Assembly (NCBI GenBank): GCA_003281505.1
Contig: QCBU01000001.1
Location: 62,001-126,000, forward strand
Source of the DNA: Prochlorococcus sp. AG-347-J14
GTDB lineage: Bacteria; Cyanobacteriota; Cyanobacteriia; PCC-6307; Cyanobiaceae
Length of the DNA stretch: 64,000 bases
Direction of reading: 5' to 3'
Shown here: piece after piece, positions 19,713 through 29,013 of the stretch
How the letters are laid out: every line of letters begins with the position of its first letter
Position numbering within the stretch: the stretch's first letter is position 1
Notes under the pieces: generated by a model
Told to the model about the DNA's origin: nothing
Database searches by the model: none
The model's input: only the letters and a program-made list of their open reading frames with translations
Translations under genes and position numbers: made by a program

Positions 19713-21155
19713 TTATTTACCTACAACCCATGTATCTTTGCATCCTCCACCTTGAGAAGAGTTTACGACTAATGATCCTTTTTTTAATGCTACCCTCGTA
19801 AGCCCACCTGGACTAACCCATGAATCTTTTCCTCTCAAGATATATGGTCTTAAATCAACATGGCATGGATATAGTTCTCCATCGCATAACGATGGTACAG
19901 TAGATAATTCTAATGTTGGTTGTGCTACGAAATTTCTAGGATTTTTTCTAATTTTATTAGCAAATTCCTCTATTTCACTGCTTGTTGAGTGAGGCCCAAT
20001 TAACATTCCATATCCACCAGCTTCAGCGACAGACTTAACAACAAGTTTTGGTAAATTTTCTAGAACGTATTCCCGATCCTTTTCGTAATGACAAATATAT
20101 GTTTCTACATTTTTAATAATAATTTCTTCATCAAGATAATATTTAATCATTTTTGGAACAAAAGAATAAATCATTTTGTCATCTGCTATTCCAGTCCCAG
20201 GTGCATTTGCTAAAGCAACATGACCTGCCTTGAAAGCATCAAGTAATCCGCTAACACCAAGGCAGGAATCTTTTCTGAAATTAAGAGGATCTAAAAAATC
20301 ATCATCAATTCGTCTGTAAATGACATCTACCCTTTTTAAACCAGAGGTAGTTTTTAAATATACATAATTATCATTACAAATTAAGTCATGACCCTGTACT
20401 AATTGGATGCCCATTTCTTGCGCTAAATAACTATGTTCAAAATATGCACTATTAAAAATTCCAGGAGTTAGTAGAACTATTTTGGGAGTGTCTGTCCAAA
20501 CAGCAAGTTCTTGAAGAGTTTTTAAAAGATATGATGGATATTCATCAATTGGTTTTACTATTCTTCCAGAAAAAAGATTAGGGAAAATATTTTTCATAAC
20601 TAATCTATTTTCTAAAAAATAAGCAACCCCAGAAGGACACCTTAAATTATCTTCTAAAACATGCCAATCTCCTTTTCTGTCCCTTATTAAATCAAGTCCC
20701 GAAATTTGACACCATTTATTTAGTGGAGGTTTGAAACCTATCATTTGAGTTCTCCAACCTTCTGAACTCTCGATTAACTCTCTTGGAATTATTCCATCAT
20801 TAATTATATTTTGAGAATTATAAATATCGTCTAGGAATAAATCAATTGCCTCAAGCCTTTGTTTTAGGCCTTTTTCTAATGTTACCCAATCATCTTTACT
20901 TATTATTCTTGGCAGTGGATCAAAGGGTAATATTCTCTCAGTACCTTTTAAACCAGTATCGTTTAATCTGAAAGTGGCACCATGTCTTAATAATAATTTT
21001 TTTGCTGCAGAATGATTCCTGTTTAACTCTTCAAGACCCATATTATCTAAAGAGGACAGAAGTGGAATTAATATTTCTCTTGCAGAGTTGACGTTATCTT
21101 TAAAGTATTCATCAAAACTATTTTTTGGACGATAGCTTGAAAACATATATTTCAT
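19713..21155 (-). CDS. Circularly permuted ATP-grasp protein (type 2)
   Basis: 480 residues. Seen: the family start SFDEYF, HGATFRLNDTG, FDPLPRIIS, then GWRTQMIGFKPP, LEDNLRCPSGVAYFLENR, and the ATP-grasp core VYRRIDDDFLDPLNF, NAPGTGIADDK and the final HVDLRPYILRGKDSWVSPGGLTRVALKKGS. Known: a predicted amide-ligase of a peptide-synthesising trio (ATP-grasp, alpha-E, transglutaminase). Product unknown. First gene of the trio, with its own promoter region in the 129-base gap to 21285. Confidence 0.9.
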   Translation of the reverse strand: MKYMFSSYRPKNSFDEYFKDNVNSAREILIPLLSSLDNMGLEELNRNHSAAKKLLLRHGATFRLNDTGLKGTERILPFDPLPRIISKDDWVTLEKGLKQRLEAIDLFLDDIYNSQNIINDGIIPRELIESSEGWRTQMIGFKPPLNKWCQISGLDLIRDRKGDWHVLEDNLRCPSGVAYFLENRLVMKNIFPNLFSGRIVKPIDEYPSYLLKTLQELAVWTDTPKIVLLTPGIFNSAYFEHSYLAQEMGIQLVQGHDLICNDNYVYLKTTSGLKRVDVIYRRIDDDFLDPLNFRKDSCLGVSGLLDAFKAGHVALANAPGTGIADDKMIYSFVPKMIKYYLDEEIIIKNVETYICHYEKDREYVLENLPKLVVKSVAEAGGYGMLIGPHSTSSEIEEFANKIRKNPRNFVAQPTLELSTVPSLCDGELYPCHVDLRPYILRGKDSWVSPGGLTRVALKKGSLVVNSSQGGGCKDTWVVGK

Positions 21156-22833: not shown

Positions 22834-23892
22834 TCAAAAAGAATTAGTACGAACTTTAAATTTCCAAACATTTACAACACCTTTTGCGTTAACTGCAGCT
22901 AGTGCACAATCATCAGGTCTCCACGAAAGTGCACCCACTAAATCGCCTGCGAATGCAGCCCCAACTGGGTCACCATTACCGTCTTTTTTTAGAAAACTTG
23001 CGACAACAGAACCATCTCTAGATCCGGAAGCTACAAGCATGCCTTTATTTGAAAAGGCTAGGCTAGAAATAGGTTCGGTATGGTGCCATAGCTCTCCCGG
23101 CATAGTTCCCTCGGGACCGTCACCTATAAAGCTCCACACTGTAATTCTTTCACTGCCACTAGTTGCCAGTAACTTTCCACTATCGTCAAAAGAAAGGTGA
23201 CTAGGTTTCCCTGGGTATCCTGTCATTTCAGCATCCATTCCGGTTGATCTTCTCCAAAAATGAACTGAATTGTCTTGACTACCGCAAGCGACTATATCAC
23301 CATCAGGACTTAATTCCATTGAGACTAATGATCCTTGCCATTCGAGCTTTTGATTCGTTTTATTATTTACTATGTCAAAGAATGTTACTCTCCCGTAGCA
23401 GGCTGTAGCTAGCTCATTATTATTTGACCATTTTATTGCACTCACTGTGCTTGGATGATCATCTGATACCCATTTTTCTTCACCAATTTCATTAAAAACA
23501 TATACTTTTTTTGAAGAAGCTGCTGCAAGAAATAAGCCATCATTTGACCACTTAAGATGCTCTACCCAAGCCTTGCCAAGATCGAGAGTTTTAATTACTT
23601 TACCTTCGTGACAATTATATATTTGAATATTTCCATCTTGACCGGAAGTTGCAAAAATCTCTCCTTCTGGATGAATGGACATTGCTAATAGACCAGCAGA
23701 GTGTGTATTTTCTTTTTTCCAAATAATTTTCCCAGTATCTCCTTCAAAGGCAAAAATACCTCCTGCTACATCCCCAACAATGAATAACTTTCCTTTAGTA
23801 GCCCAACCACAAACTATGGCATAATCATTAACTTCAGCTGTCCATCCCTCGTGGAACATGCCTCTTGGGCTAAATGATTCTATATCAGGCAT
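22834..23892 (-). CDS. WD40-repeat protein of the zinc locus
   Basis: 352 residues forming about seven WD40 blades (for example GKIIWKKENTHSAGLLAMS, GEIFATSGQDGNIQIYNC, GDIVACGSQDNSVHFWRR, GMLVASGSRDGSVVASFL). No enzyme motif or membrane segment: a predicted protein-binding propeller in the cytoplasm. It overlaps the 3' end of the COG0523 GTPase gene by 13 bases, so the two are co-translated; it is probably a partner of that GTPase or of its zinc clients. Confidence 0.85.
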   Translation of the reverse strand: MPDIESFSPRGMFHEGWTAEVNDYAIVCGWATKGKLFIVGDVAGGIFAFEGDTGKIIWKKENTHSAGLLAMSIHPEGEIFATSGQDGNIQIYNCHEGKVIKTLDLGKAWVEHLKWSNDGLFLAAASSKKVYVFNEIGEEKWVSDDHPSTVSAIKWSNNNELATACYGRVTFFDIVNNKTNQKLEWQGSLVSMELSPDGDIVACGSQDNSVHFWRRSTGMDAEMTGYPGKPSHLSFDDSGKLLATSGSERITVWSFIGDGPEGTMPGELWHHTEPISSLAFSNKGMLVASGSRDGSVVASFLKKDGNGDPVGAAFAGDLVGALSWRPDDCALAAVNAKGVVNVWKFKVRTNSF

Positions 23893-25235
23893 TTTTCAAA
23901 ACCTTCTTTCATCTCTTTCTCGTCCAAATTTCTACCTATAAAAACAAGTTGGTTTCTACGAGGTTCGTTACCCCATTCCTTATCAGGTTGCGCTGTAAAT
24001 AACATATGTACCCCTTGGAAAACTATTCTCTGTGGGTTGCCTGAGTAGCTAATGAAACCTTTAGTTCTAAATATATCCACCCCTTTTTCAGAAAGAAGTC
24101 TGCCCAACCAAGTATTAAGTTTTTCTGGATCAACATCTCCAAATCGTTCAATTGCAATGGACGTTACTTCATCATCGTGCTCGTGCTCGGCTTGCCAGAA
24201 TCTTTCAATATTAAATGGGATCTCTTTTGAATTATTGTCTTCACTTTTAATGATTTTCAGATTGAATTCTTCAGCAGTGTGCTGTGTATATAAACCTATC
24301 TTTGATCCCTTTTCGATATTTAATATGAATGATTTATTTCCTTTATCCTCCAATTTAAGTTTTATATGTTCTCCAAATGGAATGATATTCCCAGGTTCTA
24401 AGCTTTTAGCTTTTTCTGCATAAAGTCTTACGCAGGATTCAGCACCATCTTTAAGTTCTTCTTCACTCTCATCTTGATTAGCGAAAGCTACTAATGACAT
24501 TTCTGGATCGGGACCTTCTTCTAGCATTAATTCATATTTACCTGCAGCAAGGTCGTAAACACCTGTCCATTCAAAAGGATATTCTGGTTCAAGAAATGTT
24601 GGTCTGCGTTTAAGGATTTGATCGAGATCAAATGCACTTAGATTTAGGACTGTTTCGATTGGTACTTGGGCATTCTCGGCTCTAATGATTCGAGTCATTC
24701 GGTTCATATCTCTCAATCTCGATTCAAGAGTATCTAGTGCATCATCGGAGACTAAATCAGTTTTATTAAGGACAAGAACATCTGCAAACGCAACTTGTTC
24801 TGAACTTTCATCACTTCTTCCTAGCTGCTGATCAATATGAGCAGCATCAACTAAAGTTACAATTCCATCAAGAGTAAATTCAGAACTAATTTCTTCATCC
24901 ATGAAAAATGTCTGCGCGACTGGCCCAGGATCTGCTAATCCGGTCGTTTCTACTAAAACATAGTCAAACTTATCTCTTCTTTTCATAAGGTTGCCAAGGA
25001 CTCTTATTAAATCACCGCGAACAGTACAACAAATGCACCCGTTTGACATTTCAAACACTTCTTCATCGGCATTAATTACGAGTCCTTGATCTATCCCTAC
25101 TTCACCGTATTCATTCTCAATTACGGCTATTCTTTTCCCGTGCTCTTCGCTTAGTATTCTATTAAGTAAAGTAGTTTTTCCTGAACCAAGAAATCCAGTG
25201 AGAATAGTAACTGGAACTTTATCTTTGATGCTCAT
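23880..25235 (-). CDS. COG0523 (CobW/ZNG-like) GTPase with extra inserted domain
   Basis: 451-residue metal-chaperone GTPase. Seen: Walker A GFLGSGKTT (14-22), ENEYGEVGIDQ, the COG0523 metal motif GCICC (66-70), VETTGLADPGPV, NKTD (157-160) and a CobW C-terminal domain (about 357-448). Between GTPase and CobW_C lies an extra 110-residue stretch (about 221-330, FEWTGVYDLAAGKYE to TQHTAEEFNLK) followed by HEHDDE (351-356). The stretch matches one inside ZnuA. Known: Zur-regulated COG0523 proteins deliver zinc under starvation; here that role is inferred from the neighbourhood and the candidate Zur box upstream. Confidence 0.9.
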   Translation of the reverse strand: MSIKDKVPVTILTGFLGSGKTTLLNRILSEEHGKRIAVIENEYGEVGIDQGLVINADEEVFEMSNGCICCTVRGDLIRVLGNLMKRRDKFDYVLVETTGLADPGPVAQTFFMDEEISSEFTLDGIVTLVDAAHIDQQLGRSDESSEQVAFADVLVLNKTDLVSDDALDTLESRLRDMNRMTRIIRAENAQVPIETVLNLSAFDLDQILKRRPTFLEPEYPFEWTGVYDLAAGKYELMLEEGPDPEMSLVAFANQDESEEELKDGAESCVRLYAEKAKSLEPGNIIPFGEHIKLKLEDKGNKSFILNIEKGSKIGLYTQHTAEEFNLKIIKSEDNNSKEIPFNIERFWQAEHEHDDEVTSIAIERFGDVDPEKLNTWLGRLLSEKGVDIFRTKGFISYSGNPQRIVFQGVHMLFTAQPDKEWGNEPRRNQLVFIGRNLDEKEMKEGFEKCLI

Positions 25236-25285
25236 TTAATGATTTTTACCAAATAAACAATAGTTTAATAATAGTAATAATAAGA

Positions 25286-25304
25286 AATGAAAACCGTTTT
25301 TATT
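25286..25304 (-). promoter_or_regulatory. Candidate Zur box upstream of the COG0523 GTPase gene
   Basis: 9-1-9 inverted repeat AATGAAAAC-C-GTTTTTATT; 8 of 9 half-site positions pair. It lies 51 bases upstream of the GTPase start and has the same architecture as the site before znuA/znuC. Assignment to Zur is inferred from architecture and neighbours. Confidence 0.5.
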
Positions 25305-25312
25305 AGAAAAAT

Positions 25313-26854
25313 TTAATCTGAAAGTTTGTACCATTCAGACTCAAGATTGGAGCCAGATTCTTTATCACAGCTTCCACCTAATGAATCAACAATTGTACAA
25401 GTGTTGTGTACGGCTACTGAAACCGTATTACCATCCATCATCAATCCATCAACGAATATTTGATTAGAAGCTAAAGGAACTGAACTTTGTCTACTTAAGT
25501 TCCTTAATAACTTAGATGCTGGAATTTGTTCAGGAAATATTGCCTGAACTTTCTCTTCATCTAACATTTTTAAAGTAGAACTTATGTTGTCTGGCCTTAA
25601 GCTTGAGGAGTCTCCAAGAAAGTCAAGTAAACTAATGGTTTCAAAACCAAATGCATCTCCGTAGTATTCCATTGCTTTGTGTTTAGAGACAATTACTCTG
25701 TTTTCCTCAGGAATAGAGCTTACTTGTTCGACGATCCAACTATCTAAGCCTTCTAAGAGAGAATCAGCTTTTTCGAATCTTTCATTAATTAGTTTTCTGT
25801 CACCTCTATTAAAAACTGAAATTTCTTTCTTTAAACTTTTGCTTATAAGATCTCCCATTTTTATGATGTTATGTGGATCATGCCATACATGTGGATCTAG
25901 ACCTCCATGGTCATGATGGTGATGCCCCTCTCCTTCGTCTGGAACTTGTGCTATTGGTTCTACATCACTATTTGAAACGTCTTTAAAAAAGTGTTGAGTT
26001 GCTTCAAACTCAAATGGCATGTGTTCAGTAAAAAATATATATTCACCATCTTCTTTGATATCCACGTTAAAAACAGTACTTTCTTTTCTTTGATCAAAGT
26101 TAAGAACAAAAGCTTTATTACTTGCTATCAAAGTTCCATCATTTTTTCTGCTTATTGAGTCTTTAGATCCTAATAATTCTTTGGCTAAATCTTCAGACCC
26201 TTCTATGTCATTAGATTTGAGAATCACCATCTTCATTGCAGGATCTGCATATTCGCCATCGACTTTTTCAAATGACCATTTGTATGAACCCTTAGAAAGC
26301 TGGAATTTACCTGCCCATTCGAAAGCACCCTCAGCATGATCATCATGACCTCCATGATCAGAATGATCATCATGACCTCCATGATCAGAATGATCATCTA
26401 CCTTAGCTGAATGTTCAGCATGATCGTCATGTCCGCCATGGTCTGAGTGGTCATCGTGACCTTCATGATCAGAATGATCATCTACGTCTATTGCACTAAC
26501 ACCTACAACAACAGTATTCTTTTTACTTTCCCAATTTCTCATACTTGGAGTCATTTCTTTGCCAAGAGTGAATACTTTGTCTGCGCTATTTAGTAATTGA
26601 GCTTGTCTTGGATTGATCTTTAAGTCATGAACATCCTGTTTTCTATCTACTAAGCATGTAACTTCGTCAGATGGTAACGCAATTGATTTAACTAAATCAC
26701 AAACTAGTGGTTCTACTGCTACGTATGACTTCCCTTTAGCCATTACATCCTGCCCAAAACCAGAAAATATAATCGTTCCAGCGATTACGGAATTTTTAAT
26801 AATTGACTTACTTGAACATGTTTTATTTGATAAAAGTCTTTTAAAAATTGACAT
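25313..26854 (-). CDS. znuA: Zinc ABC transporter binding protein ZnuA, with enlarged insert
   Basis: Periplasmic zinc-binding protein, 513 residues against the usual 300-350. Seen: signal peptide (1-39), YVAVEPLVCDLVKSIA, VHDLKINPRQAQLLNSADKVF, a His/Asp-rich tract of DDHSDHGGH units (about 124-174), an extra 105-residue domain (178-282, FEWAGKFQLSKGSYK to FTEHMPFEFE), a second HHHHDHGG (311-318), LDPHVWHDPHNI (319-330) and the C-terminal half with SKHKAMEYYGDAFGFE and FPEQIPASK. The extra domain is shared with the neighbouring GTPase. Divergent from znuC across a 137-base spacer with a Zur-like palindrome. Confidence 0.93.
   Translation of the reverse strand: MSIFKRLLSNKTCSSKSIIKNSVIAGTIIFSGFGQDVMAKGKSYVAVEPLVCDLVKSIALPSDEVTCLVDRKQDVHDLKINPRQAQLLNSADKVFTLGKEMTPSMRNWESKKNTVVVGVSAIDVDDHSDHEGHDDHSDHGGHDDHAEHSAKVDDHSDHGGHDDHSDHGGHDDHAEGAFEWAGKFQLSKGSYKWSFEKVDGEYADPAMKMVILKSNDIEGSEDLAKELLGSKDSISRKNDGTLIASNKAFVLNFDQRKESTVFNVDIKEDGEYIFFTEHMPFEFEATQHFFKDVSNSDVEPIAQVPDEGEGHHHHDHGGLDPHVWHDPHNIIKMGDLISKSLKKEISVFNRGDRKLINERFEKADSLLEGLDSWIVEQVSSIPEENRVIVSKHKAMEYYGDAFGFETISLLDFLGDSSSLRPDNISSTLKMLDEEKVQAIFPEQIPASKLLRNLSRQSSVPLASNQIFVDGLMMDGNTVSVAVHNTCTIVDSLGGSCDKESGSNLESEWYKLSD
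26333..26485 (-). repeat. His/Asp-rich tandem repeats inside znuA
   Basis: Imperfect repeats of about 21 bases encoding DDHSDHG/GHDDHxx units (ZnuA residues 124-174). The two copies of GATCATCATGACCTCCATGA are identical at the DNA level, indicating recent duplication. In ZnuA proteins this loop binds extra zinc. Confidence 0.85.
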
Positions 26855-26876: not shown

Positions 26877-26895
26877 AATGATAATCATTTTCATT
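26877..26895 (+). promoter_or_regulatory. Candidate Zur box between znuA and znuC
   Basis: 9-1-9 inverted repeat AATGATAAT-C-ATTTTCATT; 8 of 9 pairs. It is 23 bases from the znuA start and about 97 bases before znuC, so it could control both. TGATAAT resembles known cyanobacterial Fur/Zur half-sites. Confidence 0.65.
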
Positions 26896-26991: not shown

Positions 26992-27762
26992 ATGGCTACT
27001 TTAGTCGCTGAAAATTTAACATTTGCATACACAGAAAAAAGTAAGCCAGCTTTAAATAAGGTATCGGTTGAGATTAAACCTGGAACTCTAACAGCGCTAG
27101 TAGGTCCAAATGGTGCCGGTAAATCCACTCTTTTGAGGATATTGCAAGGACAAAATACTCCAGATAAAGGCGAAATAAAAATTGACGGTGAAAATTTATA
27201 TAGATCTAGAGCTCTAGTGGCACTTATGCCTCAAAGAAGTTCTATGAATTGGAAGTTTCCCATTACAGTTGAAAAATTGGTATCTCTTGGTCAAATAAAG
27301 TATTCAAAATCAAGAAGTAATAACCCCTTTCAAATCAAGGCTCTTCTAGAATATCCTAATTCTTGGATTAATAAATGTTGTGAATTAGAAGCGACAATGC
27401 AAAGAGTAGGAATTGCTAATTTGGCTAATAGAAGACTCGATTCTCTTTCAGGAGGACAGCAACAAAGAGCTCTATTAGCAAAAACTCTTATGTCCCCTGC
27501 AAAAATATTTCTTTTGGATGAACCTTGTGCGGCATTGGATCCCCCCGCAAAAGAGGACTTCCTGAAAATTGTTCGCCAACTCGCAGATGCGGGACTTTCT
27601 TTGCTAGTAAGTAGCCATGATTGGGGCGAGTCTCTAAATAACTACGATCAAGTAATCGTTCTTGATAAAAGTGTTTTAGCAGTTGGTAGTCCTGATCAAA
27701 TAAAAGATAAATTAGATGCGATTAACATAAGCTCTATAAAAGAAAGTAATTTCTGTGATTAG
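26992..27762 (+). CDS. znuC: Zinc ABC transporter ATPase
   Basis: 256-residue ABC ATPase. Seen: Walker A GPNGAGKST, Q-loop MPQRSSMNWKFP, signature LSGGQQQRALLAKTL, Walker B FLLDEPCAALD and the H-switch SSHDW. The segment SMNWKFPITVEKLVSLGQ is typical of manganese/zinc-type importers. Together with znuA and znuB it forms the zinc uptake system; its 3' end faces zur 13 bases away, and znuB follows beyond zur. Confidence 0.93.
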   Translation: MATLVAENLTFAYTEKSKPALNKVSVEIKPGTLTALVGPNGAGKSTLLRILQGQNTPDKGEIKIDGENLYRSRALVALMPQRSSMNWKFPITVEKLVSLGQIKYSKSRSNNPFQIKALLEYPNSWINKCCELEATMQRVGIANLANRRLDSLSGGQQQRALLAKTLMSPAKIFLLDEPCAALDPPAKEDFLKIVRQLADAGLSLLVSSHDWGESLNNYDQVIVLDKSVLAVGSPDQIKDKLDAINISSIKESNFCD

Positions 27763-27775
27763 AAAATGTTCCTTC

Positions 27776-28210
27776 TTAATTTTGAGCTTGATAACAGTTT
27801 TGGCAAAGGCCGAAATATTCGAGTGTATGAAACAAAAGTTGAAACTTTCTTGGATTTTTTTTAGGGGCATGAATATTTTTAACAGGACAGCCTTCCATTT
27901 TCGACGTCTCTCCGCATTGAACGCAGGTCAAATGATGAATATCTCTTTCTACGGGAGTGTAAAGAACCTCTCCTGTTGGGAGATGTCTGGAACGAATTAA
28001 TCCATGCTTTATCAAGATTTGCAGATTTCTATAAACAGTGGTCAACCCCATAGATTTGCCTTTTGTGATCAACTGCCTATGCAATTCTTGACCGCTCAAT
28101 TCATCCTCGCATTTATTAAGTTCTTCAAGAAGTTGTTCTTGTCTTTTGGTAATGTCAGACTTAGTTACCATTGTTTCCAAAATCTTTTTTTGTCTCGTAT
28201 TTTTGATCAT
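27776..28210 (-). CDS. zur: Fur-family zinc regulator, probable Zur
   Basis: 144 residues (or 131 if starting at the internal Met14). Seen: a winged-helix DNA-binding domain (TKRQEQLLEEL, SGQELHRQLITKGKSMGLTTVYRNLQIL) and a dimerisation domain with the metal ligands DIHHLTCVQCGET and the C-terminal pair GLCQNC (structural zinc). It is a Fur paralogue; its position inside the znu cluster makes Zur the best call. It is transcribed against znuC and znuB. Confidence 0.88.
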   Translation of the reverse strand: MIKNTRQKKILETMVTKSDITKRQEQLLEELNKCEDELSGQELHRQLITKGKSMGLTTVYRNLQILIKHGLIRSRHLPTGEVLYTPVERDIHHLTCVQCGETSKMEGCPVKNIHAPKKNPRKFQLLFHTLEYFGLCQNCYQAQN

Positions 28211-28227: not shown

Positions 28228-29013
28228 ATGTCTTTTATTAATAACAACTGGTGGTTGGTTCCATTAATAATAACTATATTTTCCGGGATCTTATGCCCAG
28301 CTATGGGAACTGTATTAATCACCCATAAGAGATTATTACAAGTTAATTTAATCTCTCATTGTGTTTTGCCTGGACTTGCTCTCGCATTAGCGCTTGGAAT
28401 TCACCCCTCAATTGGTGGTGTTATAAGTGGTCTTCTGGGCTCAGTAATTGCTGAAAGTTTAACTAATAGAAAAAGTGAAAATTATGAAGCAGTTATGAAT
28501 ACTATTCTCGCTGGAATGCTTGGGTTTGGGGTCCTTATAATCCCTTTACTCGGAATAAGGATTGATTTGGAGGCAGTATTATTTGGCGATTTATTGACAG
28601 CAAATTTTGGAGATTTACTTAGAACAATAATTGCTTTTTTAGTATTTATATTTTTAATGACTTTTGGATATGAAAAGGTAGTTTATGTTGGATTAGATCC
28701 AGAAGGTGCATCCGCAAGTGGTATAAACGTTTCATTATTAAATCTTGCTTTGAGTTTTACAACGGCATTAGTAATTGTTAGTTCAATGTCAGCAGTGGGA
28801 GTAATTCTTGTAATTGCTCTTCTTTCTACGCCAACTTTGTTAGGGCTAAATAAGGCTCATAGTTTAAGAATTGCAATGATGAGGTCTTCATTTTTTGGAT
28901 TATGTATCTCACTTCTTGGATTTATTCTCTCTATAGTCTTTAATCTTTCGCCTGGACCTGCAATTAGCGTTATTTGTGTTGCGTCTCTTTTAATTCCTAA
29001 GCTTCGCAAATAA
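28228..29013 (+). CDS. znuB: Zinc ABC transporter permease
   Basis: 261-residue inner-membrane permease (ABC-3 family) with about eight hydrophobic segments. Seen: LITHKRLLQVNLISHCVLPGLALALALG, FGYEKVVYVGLDPEGASASGI and the C-terminal ALLSTPTLLG. The start lies 17 bases from the zur start on the other strand, so zur and znuB probably share a compact control region. Confidence 0.92.
   Translation: MSFINNNWWLVPLIITIFSGILCPAMGTVLITHKRLLQVNLISHCVLPGLALALALGIHPSIGGVISGLLGSVIAESLTNRKSENYEAVMNTILAGMLGFGVLIIPLLGIRIDLEAVLFGDLLTANFGDLLRTIIAFLVFIFLMTFGYEKVVYVGLDPEGASASGINVSLLNLALSFTTALVIVSSMSAVGVILVIALLSTPTLLGLNKAHSLRIAMMRSSFFGLCISLLGFILSIVFNLSPGPAISVICVASLLIPKLRK

Follow-up and report, generated by a model that had tools for sequence, protein, structure and literature searches.

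A module shared by ZnuA and a COG0523 GTPase in a Prochlorococcus zinc locus: a candidate metal-handling domain

The zinc locus described here lies in a 64,000-nucleotide stretch of Prochlorococcus sp. AG-347-J14 (contig QCBU01000001.1, positions 62,001 to 126,000), hereafter the window, and encodes two proteins, the zinc-binding protein ZnuA and a COG0523 (CobW-type) GTPase, that have a domain of ~110 residues in common. This domain, which we call the module, is the subject of this report. On the minus strand znuA, the GTPase gene and a WD40 gene follow one another, and the other side of znuA is occupied by genes for an ABC ATPase, a regulator and a permease. The features are, in window coordinates:

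25313-26854, minus strand: ZnuA zinc-binding protein, 513 residues (PF01297, 1.1e-41, in two stretches)
26324-26482, minus strand: His-rich stretch of ZnuA, residues 125-177 with 15 His, directly before the module
25991-26323, minus strand: module copy in ZnuA, residues 178-288 (profile limits), inside the His-rich loop and before DPHVW
25907-25924, minus strand: HHHHDH of ZnuA, residues 311-316, after the module and before DPHVW (320-324)
23880-25235, minus strand: COG0523 (CobW-type) GTPase, 451 residues (PF02492, 2.3e-61; PF07683, 3.5e-25)
24252-24575, minus strand: module copy in the GTPase, residues 221-328 (profile limits), between the G domain and CobW_C
22834-23892, minus strand: WD40 protein (Pfam), a frequent partner of this GTPase group; its gene overlaps the GTPase gene
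26879-26893, no strand assigned: Zur-box-like palindrome TGATAATCATTTTCA, situated between znuA and znuC
26992-27762, plus strand: ABC ATPase, ZnuC by its place (PF00005, 5.4e-31)
27776-28210, minus strand: Fur-family regulator, Zur by its place (PF01475, 1.8e-19)
28228-29013, plus strand: ABC-3 family permease, ZnuB by its place (PF00950, 2.3e-42)

Both hosts of the module are recognisable members of known families. ZnuA scores 143.6 bits against a PF01297 cut-off of 29, and a ZnuA 100% identical to it is encoded in strain MIT 9107 (locus L003). The GTPase has both the cobW G domain (residues 8-184) and the CobW_C domain (358-450) of CobW-type proteins, and carries CICC at residue 67, an instance of the CxCC motif named for COG0523 proteins in the available part of PMC2770081. 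The same part of that paper describes COG0523 subfamily 5 (Haas et al. 2009), in which a CobW-type GTPase stands beside WD40 genes and znuABC, with some predicted Zur sites; the window GTPase, with WD40 and znuABC genes adjoining, has the neighbours by which that subfamily is recognised. The WD40-linked COG0523 group is known; the module is found in none of the domain libraries searched.

The original prediction, made from the DNA letters alone, had proposed that ZnuA and the GTPase share an extra domain of ~105-110 residues, and had named profile comparison and structure prediction as the means to check it. Direct BLASTP of the pair aligns 46 columns, 17 of them identical (E 4e-6), and a search of the ~87% complete genome with the ZnuA segment at E<=10 returns only the segment itself and that of the GTPase (E 0.0098, query residues 1-109 of 126). 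Across the window's family, single-sequence searches with the ZnuA module reach GTPase-length frames at a best E of 2.3e-6, and the reverse search, from the GTPase module to ZnuA, reaches 8.3e-6. Profile-profile comparison of 18 cyanobacterial GTPase modules with 8 cyanobacterial ZnuA modules gives a probability of 98.58 and a score of 87 over 101 columns, against a probability of 0.21 for the reversed alignment and maxima of 3.11 (probability) and 18.7 (score) in 50 column shuffles. These controls rule out chance similarity: the two segments are a true shared domain, as had been claimed.

No match was found when Pfam was run over the module segments, save for the edge of one ZnuA-family stretch starting at residue 280, and the module is covered by none of the Pfam or NCBIfam models that matched and has no credible sequence relative in the PDB. 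Comparison of 11 modules with Pfam at E<=10 returned four stray families, each with one module, the HMMER filters dropping most matches this weak. A designed protein, the top sequence hit in the PDB (E 0.004), was set aside as a match of composition. Within the open-licence PubMed Central literature, as far as its text was available, no description of the module was found.

An alignment of 36 non-redundant module copies highlights six residues, E2, G12, D27, H111, E115 and F116 (alignment columns), that are invariant in all 36; W3 varies in one copy, in which the six persist. Four of them (E2, D27, H111 and E115) could ligate a metal. AlphaFold2 models were built of the ZnuA module from a mixed alignment, which leans on GTPase rows too (pLDDT 75, pTM 0.67), and of the GTPase module from GTPase rows alone, independently of ZnuA (pLDDT 63, pTM 0.54). 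Both predict the same main order of three strands, a helix and four strands, each with one or two short extra pieces, and the secondary-structure state agrees at 92 of 121 aligned residues compared with at most 70 under circular shifts. The structural check thus bears out the profile comparison. VIA-align of the two models against known structures reached Z scores of at most 5.5 and 6.1, the GTPase module model being compared by this method alone.

Weak similarity of both models to GOLD-type jelly rolls, a class of folds that often dock proteins, raises the idea that the module binds a protein bringing or taking metal (a chaperone, the WD40 partner or a transporter), with the invariant residues serving structure or interface. 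The GOLD domains in question (SEC14L/SPF, p24 and GPR180) resemble the broad jelly-roll arrangement of both models weakly, at Z 4.7-5.7 (best 5.5 and 5.7), rmsd 3.0-4.4 and 5-15% identity, Z scores too low to indicate kinship. The presence of CBM35 and fungal adhesin domains among the weak fold matches would in turn suit an envelope- or glycan-binding jelly roll that tethers the protein and has no metal role. This is highly improbable, one main host being a GTPase of cytosolic type and the hosts that can be assigned by Pfam being ZnuA or COG0523 proteins.

The module was found in 23 of 292 genomes across the cyanobacterial phylum (E<=0.01). In the window's family, 39 of 151 genomes matched at E<=1, two of them not credibly (E ~0.5). 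ZnuA carries the module in 30 family genomes, all 30 of which also have a copy in a GTPase-length frame, and seven have it in a GTPase-length frame alone; some of these frames were identified individually. The module sits in zinc loci, one of the supports that had been asked for. In a scan of genome contigs the 80 top-scoring loci among 308 each bore the title Prochlorococcus or Synechococcaceae, and other phyla were surveyed through 72,556 plasmid records. With the GTPase module of locus L139 as query, 12 of these records matched at E<=1, the alignment spanning 80% or more of the query in 11. They include proteobacterial COG0523 GTPases whose genes are followed by a WD40 gene (Paraburkholderia, Pantoea agglomerans) and a region of Pantoea soli that has no annotation. 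Haloarchaea have the module in ZnuA-type proteins (Halorubrum, two Haloarcula, Halorientalis) and in short proteins made up of a lipoprotein-like N-terminal part, the module and His-rich ends. A further host is a 303-residue membrane protein of Alicyclobacillus (Bacillota; L143:5794-6705), encoded beside cation-transport genes; one of its loops holds the module, and neither Pfam nor NCBIfam matches it. We call it a transporter because of these neighbours, its hydrophobic segments and an H-x4-D-H motif, which we take to be that of nickel/cobalt permeases. The weak twelfth match (E 0.3) is a broken module gene of Alkalihalophilus pseudofirmus (L152:3400-4500), its pieces in different frames. Carriage by phages was rejected, as the phage records and viral contigs searched gave no match to the module, nor did a near-identity DNA search with a neighbouring stretch.

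Some further observations concern individual module loci. In one haloarchaeal plasmid locus (L150:117-6426) a module-bearing lipoprotein-like gene lies directly behind a urease operon, which hints at nickel. A permease-like frame (L195:6897-7739, genome G245) directly precedes a module GTPase, and is presumably of nickel/cobalt type by its motif. The end of Haloarcula halophila plasmid NZ_CP119561.1 (L146, L147) repeats genes of its 58-65 kb stretch, with znuA split across two frames, perhaps an uncut circular overlap.

That neither family normally has such a domain, as the original prediction held, agrees with the lack of a library description and with close relatives of both hosts that are without it. 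Among the 27 best-scoring cyanobacterial GTPase loci after three picocyanobacterial ones, with G domains 61-65% identical, the module is absent from 25 (frames of 323-381 residues); the two that have it (G245, G233) are distant genomes of the phylum. Five aligned GTPases show a clean junction, ...NFLG running directly into EDAHEHDD without the module versus ...TFLEPEYP, the module and ...AEHEHDD with it. The available part of PMC2770081 describes no inserted domain in subfamily 5. A WD40 gene lies within the short flanks of 25 of the 27 loci, which could be read in favour of a docking role, but loci without the module retain it too. In addition, the hosts lie in different compartments and no common partner gene was seen in the annotated neighbourhoods, so that docking to a protein appears unlikely, though it deserves to be weighed.

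A GTPase tree of 15 module-bearing and 30 module-less rows requires two changes, or one in 53% of bootstrap trees (the bootstrap had not settled; two duplicate rows, L175 and Paraburkholderia, a shorter frame without CICC, were left out), suggesting that one or two gains or losses of the module probably took place among the GTPases. Three genomes (L188-L190) have a module-less ZnuA in the same gene cluster, and in a ZnuA tree of 43 of 46 loci (L232-L234 gave no row) these are sister to the module-bearing ones (100/100), with haloarchaeal ZnuAs elsewhere on a long branch. Because module-less sisters exist and the haloarchaeal proteins stand apart, parsimony implies that the module was gained at least twice in ZnuA, in Prochlorococcus and in haloarchaea. 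The insertion point is the same in both lineages, the loop before DPHVW, where by alignment another cyanobacterial ZnuA, that of L224, keeps a His-rich stretch.

It had also been proposed that the module was copied between the two neighbours, and the two copies do lie at most 5 kb apart in 27 of 30 family genomes. The module tree nevertheless joins the Prochlorococcus ZnuA copies to haloarchaeal ones (96/87), apart from the GTPase copies, albeit on long branches, and a tree forcing the Prochlorococcus ZnuA and picocyanobacterial GTPase copies together is borderline rejected by the approximately unbiased test (p 0.046). Mean identity runs the same way, the Prochlorococcus ZnuA modules being closer to those of haloarchaeal ZnuA (0.33) than to those of cyanobacterial GTPases (0.26). 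Recent passage between the neighbours thus probably did not occur, and copying between ZnuA and GTPase within picocyanobacteria seems very unlikely, the tree disfavouring it without being firm.

The place of the module in its hosts may bear on its role. In ZnuA it was thought to replace the loop around the His-rich region; it turns out to be inserted within that region, preceded by 53 residues with 15 His and followed by HHHHDH. The window protein has the body, DPHVW motif and His-rich loop of other ZnuA proteins (PF01297), and differs from them in a 111-residue domain added in that loop. Residues 86-179, which include the His-rich stretch, have a match to ZrgA (NCBIfam NF047873) far below the cut-off (28.6 bits versus 185, E 1e-6); this match ends where the module begins. 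Among 96 distinct module ZnuAs (at least 440 residues, no unknown residues), three have two modules in tandem (L087, L141 and L205; genomes G067, G173 and G182), and the 60 residues before their modules contain a single His, whereas the 93 single-module proteins average 13.5 there (range 3-17). The His-rich stretch is missing from the two-module ZnuAs, as though a second module might serve in its place. An 873-residue "double ZnuA" with two modules (L091, G078:C1:1355361-1358705) contains a run of unknown residues and was dropped as a probable assembly artefact. Haloarchaeal COG0523 proteins encoded beside a module ZnuA are themselves without the module and have His-rich residues before CobW_C instead.

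The module precedes DPHVW in ZnuA and, in the GTPase, HEHDDEV at the start of CobW_C, so it might fold onto the host's metal entrance and open or close it according to zinc or nucleotide state. We consider such a gate or sensor distinctly unlikely, as the module also occurs alone in a small lipoprotein-like protein with nothing to gate.

As for regulation, the palindrome TGATAATCATTTTCA lies 25 bases before the znuA start and has one mismatch to the Zur-box consensus; none of 200 shuffles of the upstream region, preserving base composition only, was as good. A scan of the whole window is not significant by count (three sites, a number reached by 35 of 100 shuffles), and the site is kept because of its place and its per-gene shuffle control. 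Across 27 regions upstream of znuA or GTPase genes, with starts outside the window taken from stop-to-stop frames, the best site has at most three mismatches in 16, four in one, five in six and six or seven in four. Single-mismatch sites, equalled by zero or one of 200 shuffles, precede znuA in the window, L198 and L205, and the GTPase in L191, L193 and L201. Sites with one to three mismatches precede znuA in the window, L188, L198, L199, L200, L203 and L205, with six in L202. Before the GTPase there are two mismatches in L200, three in L187, L190, L199, L204 and L206, four in the window, where the gene lies behind znuA, and at least five in L188, L189, L192, L194-L197 and, where it follows znuA, L202 and L203. 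Not every three-mismatch site is strong: for some, as many as 20 of 200 shuffles do equally well. The Fur-family regulator is labelled Zur because of its place; the NCBIfam PerR and Fur models score it above the Zur model, all three below their cut-offs. A circularly permuted ATP-grasp gene (19713-21155) lies downstream of, and in the same orientation as, the WD40 gene; it also occurs near the znu cluster in L205.

On balance we favour, at a probability of roughly one half, the module being a ~110-residue β-sandwich domain with a role in transition-metal handling, the metal at these loci being zinc. The reading draws on the four invariant possible ligands, the ZnuA and COG0523 hosts, the zinc-operon context and the His-rich stretches that are replaced or flanked. 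From these residues and their context we infer that the module, inserted where metal proteins often keep a His-rich stretch, would probably hold one ion on Glu2, Asp27, His111 and Glu115 and may hand it to, or buffer it for, an adjacent site of the host, which outside would be the DPHVW site of ZnuA and inside the CICC/CobW_C side of the GTPase. The original prediction had left the choice between a zinc- and a protein-binding module, possibly with a common partner. Metal binding would fit the conserved residues better; a common protein partner is not supported, and is less likely because the hosts (a cytosolic GTPase, a periplasmic protein, secreted archaeal proteins and a membrane protein) span compartments, as judged from their families and sequences.

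Several points weigh against a metal-handling module. Model confidence is middling to low (pLDDT 75 and 63), a Foldseek search of the PDB and BFVD with the ZnuA module model gave no match at E<0.001, and the weak fold matches are generic jelly rolls, sugar-binding modules included. The three two-module ZnuAs probably belong to a single lineage, the 93 single-module proteins are for the most part near-duplicates, and 11 of the 27 upstream regions are without a good Zur box. Finally, genes for cobalamin, cobalt transport or urease adjoin some haloarchaeal copies, a sign that the metal could be other than zinc and may differ between hosts.

Known zinc proteins offer partial parallels. AdcA is a ZnuA fused at its C-terminus to ZinT, a second domain that may feed zinc; the likeness lies in a zinc-binding protein with a second domain, and ZinT is not among the Pfam matches of the 11 modules (E<=10). 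ZepA, a Zur-controlled zinc exoprotein of cyanobacteria with a PEP-CTERM, a β-sandwich domain and a histidine site, is reported absent from Archaea in the available part of PMC10957091; by its description it resembles the module, a putative zinc-related β-sandwich. In Synechococcus WH8102, a Zur-repressed znu cluster has two uncharacterised genes beside znuA (PMC9337993, available part).

The module is probably a metal-handling building block, inserted into proteins on several occasions in evolution. More tentatively, and with considerable doubt on our part, it may be an old domain not described before that holds a metal ion and acts as a folded substitute for the His-rich loop. In this view it has been exchanged among zinc-binding proteins of ABC importers, cytosolic G3E metallochaperones, membrane metal transporters and archaeal surface lipoproteins, and would provide the cell with corresponding zinc relays outside and inside the membrane. 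To our knowledge, how zinc passes from the uptake protein to a cytosolic chaperone under extreme scarcity is an open question, and the role of the His-rich loop in ZnuA and COG0523 proteins is unsettled. The module sits in the zinc operon of Prochlorococcus, a genus among the most abundant photoautotrophs of the ocean (PMC9337993, available part). A folded domain at the position of the His-rich loop in unrelated metal protein families, absent from their close relatives, provides natural pairs with and without it, which make the role of that loop testable.

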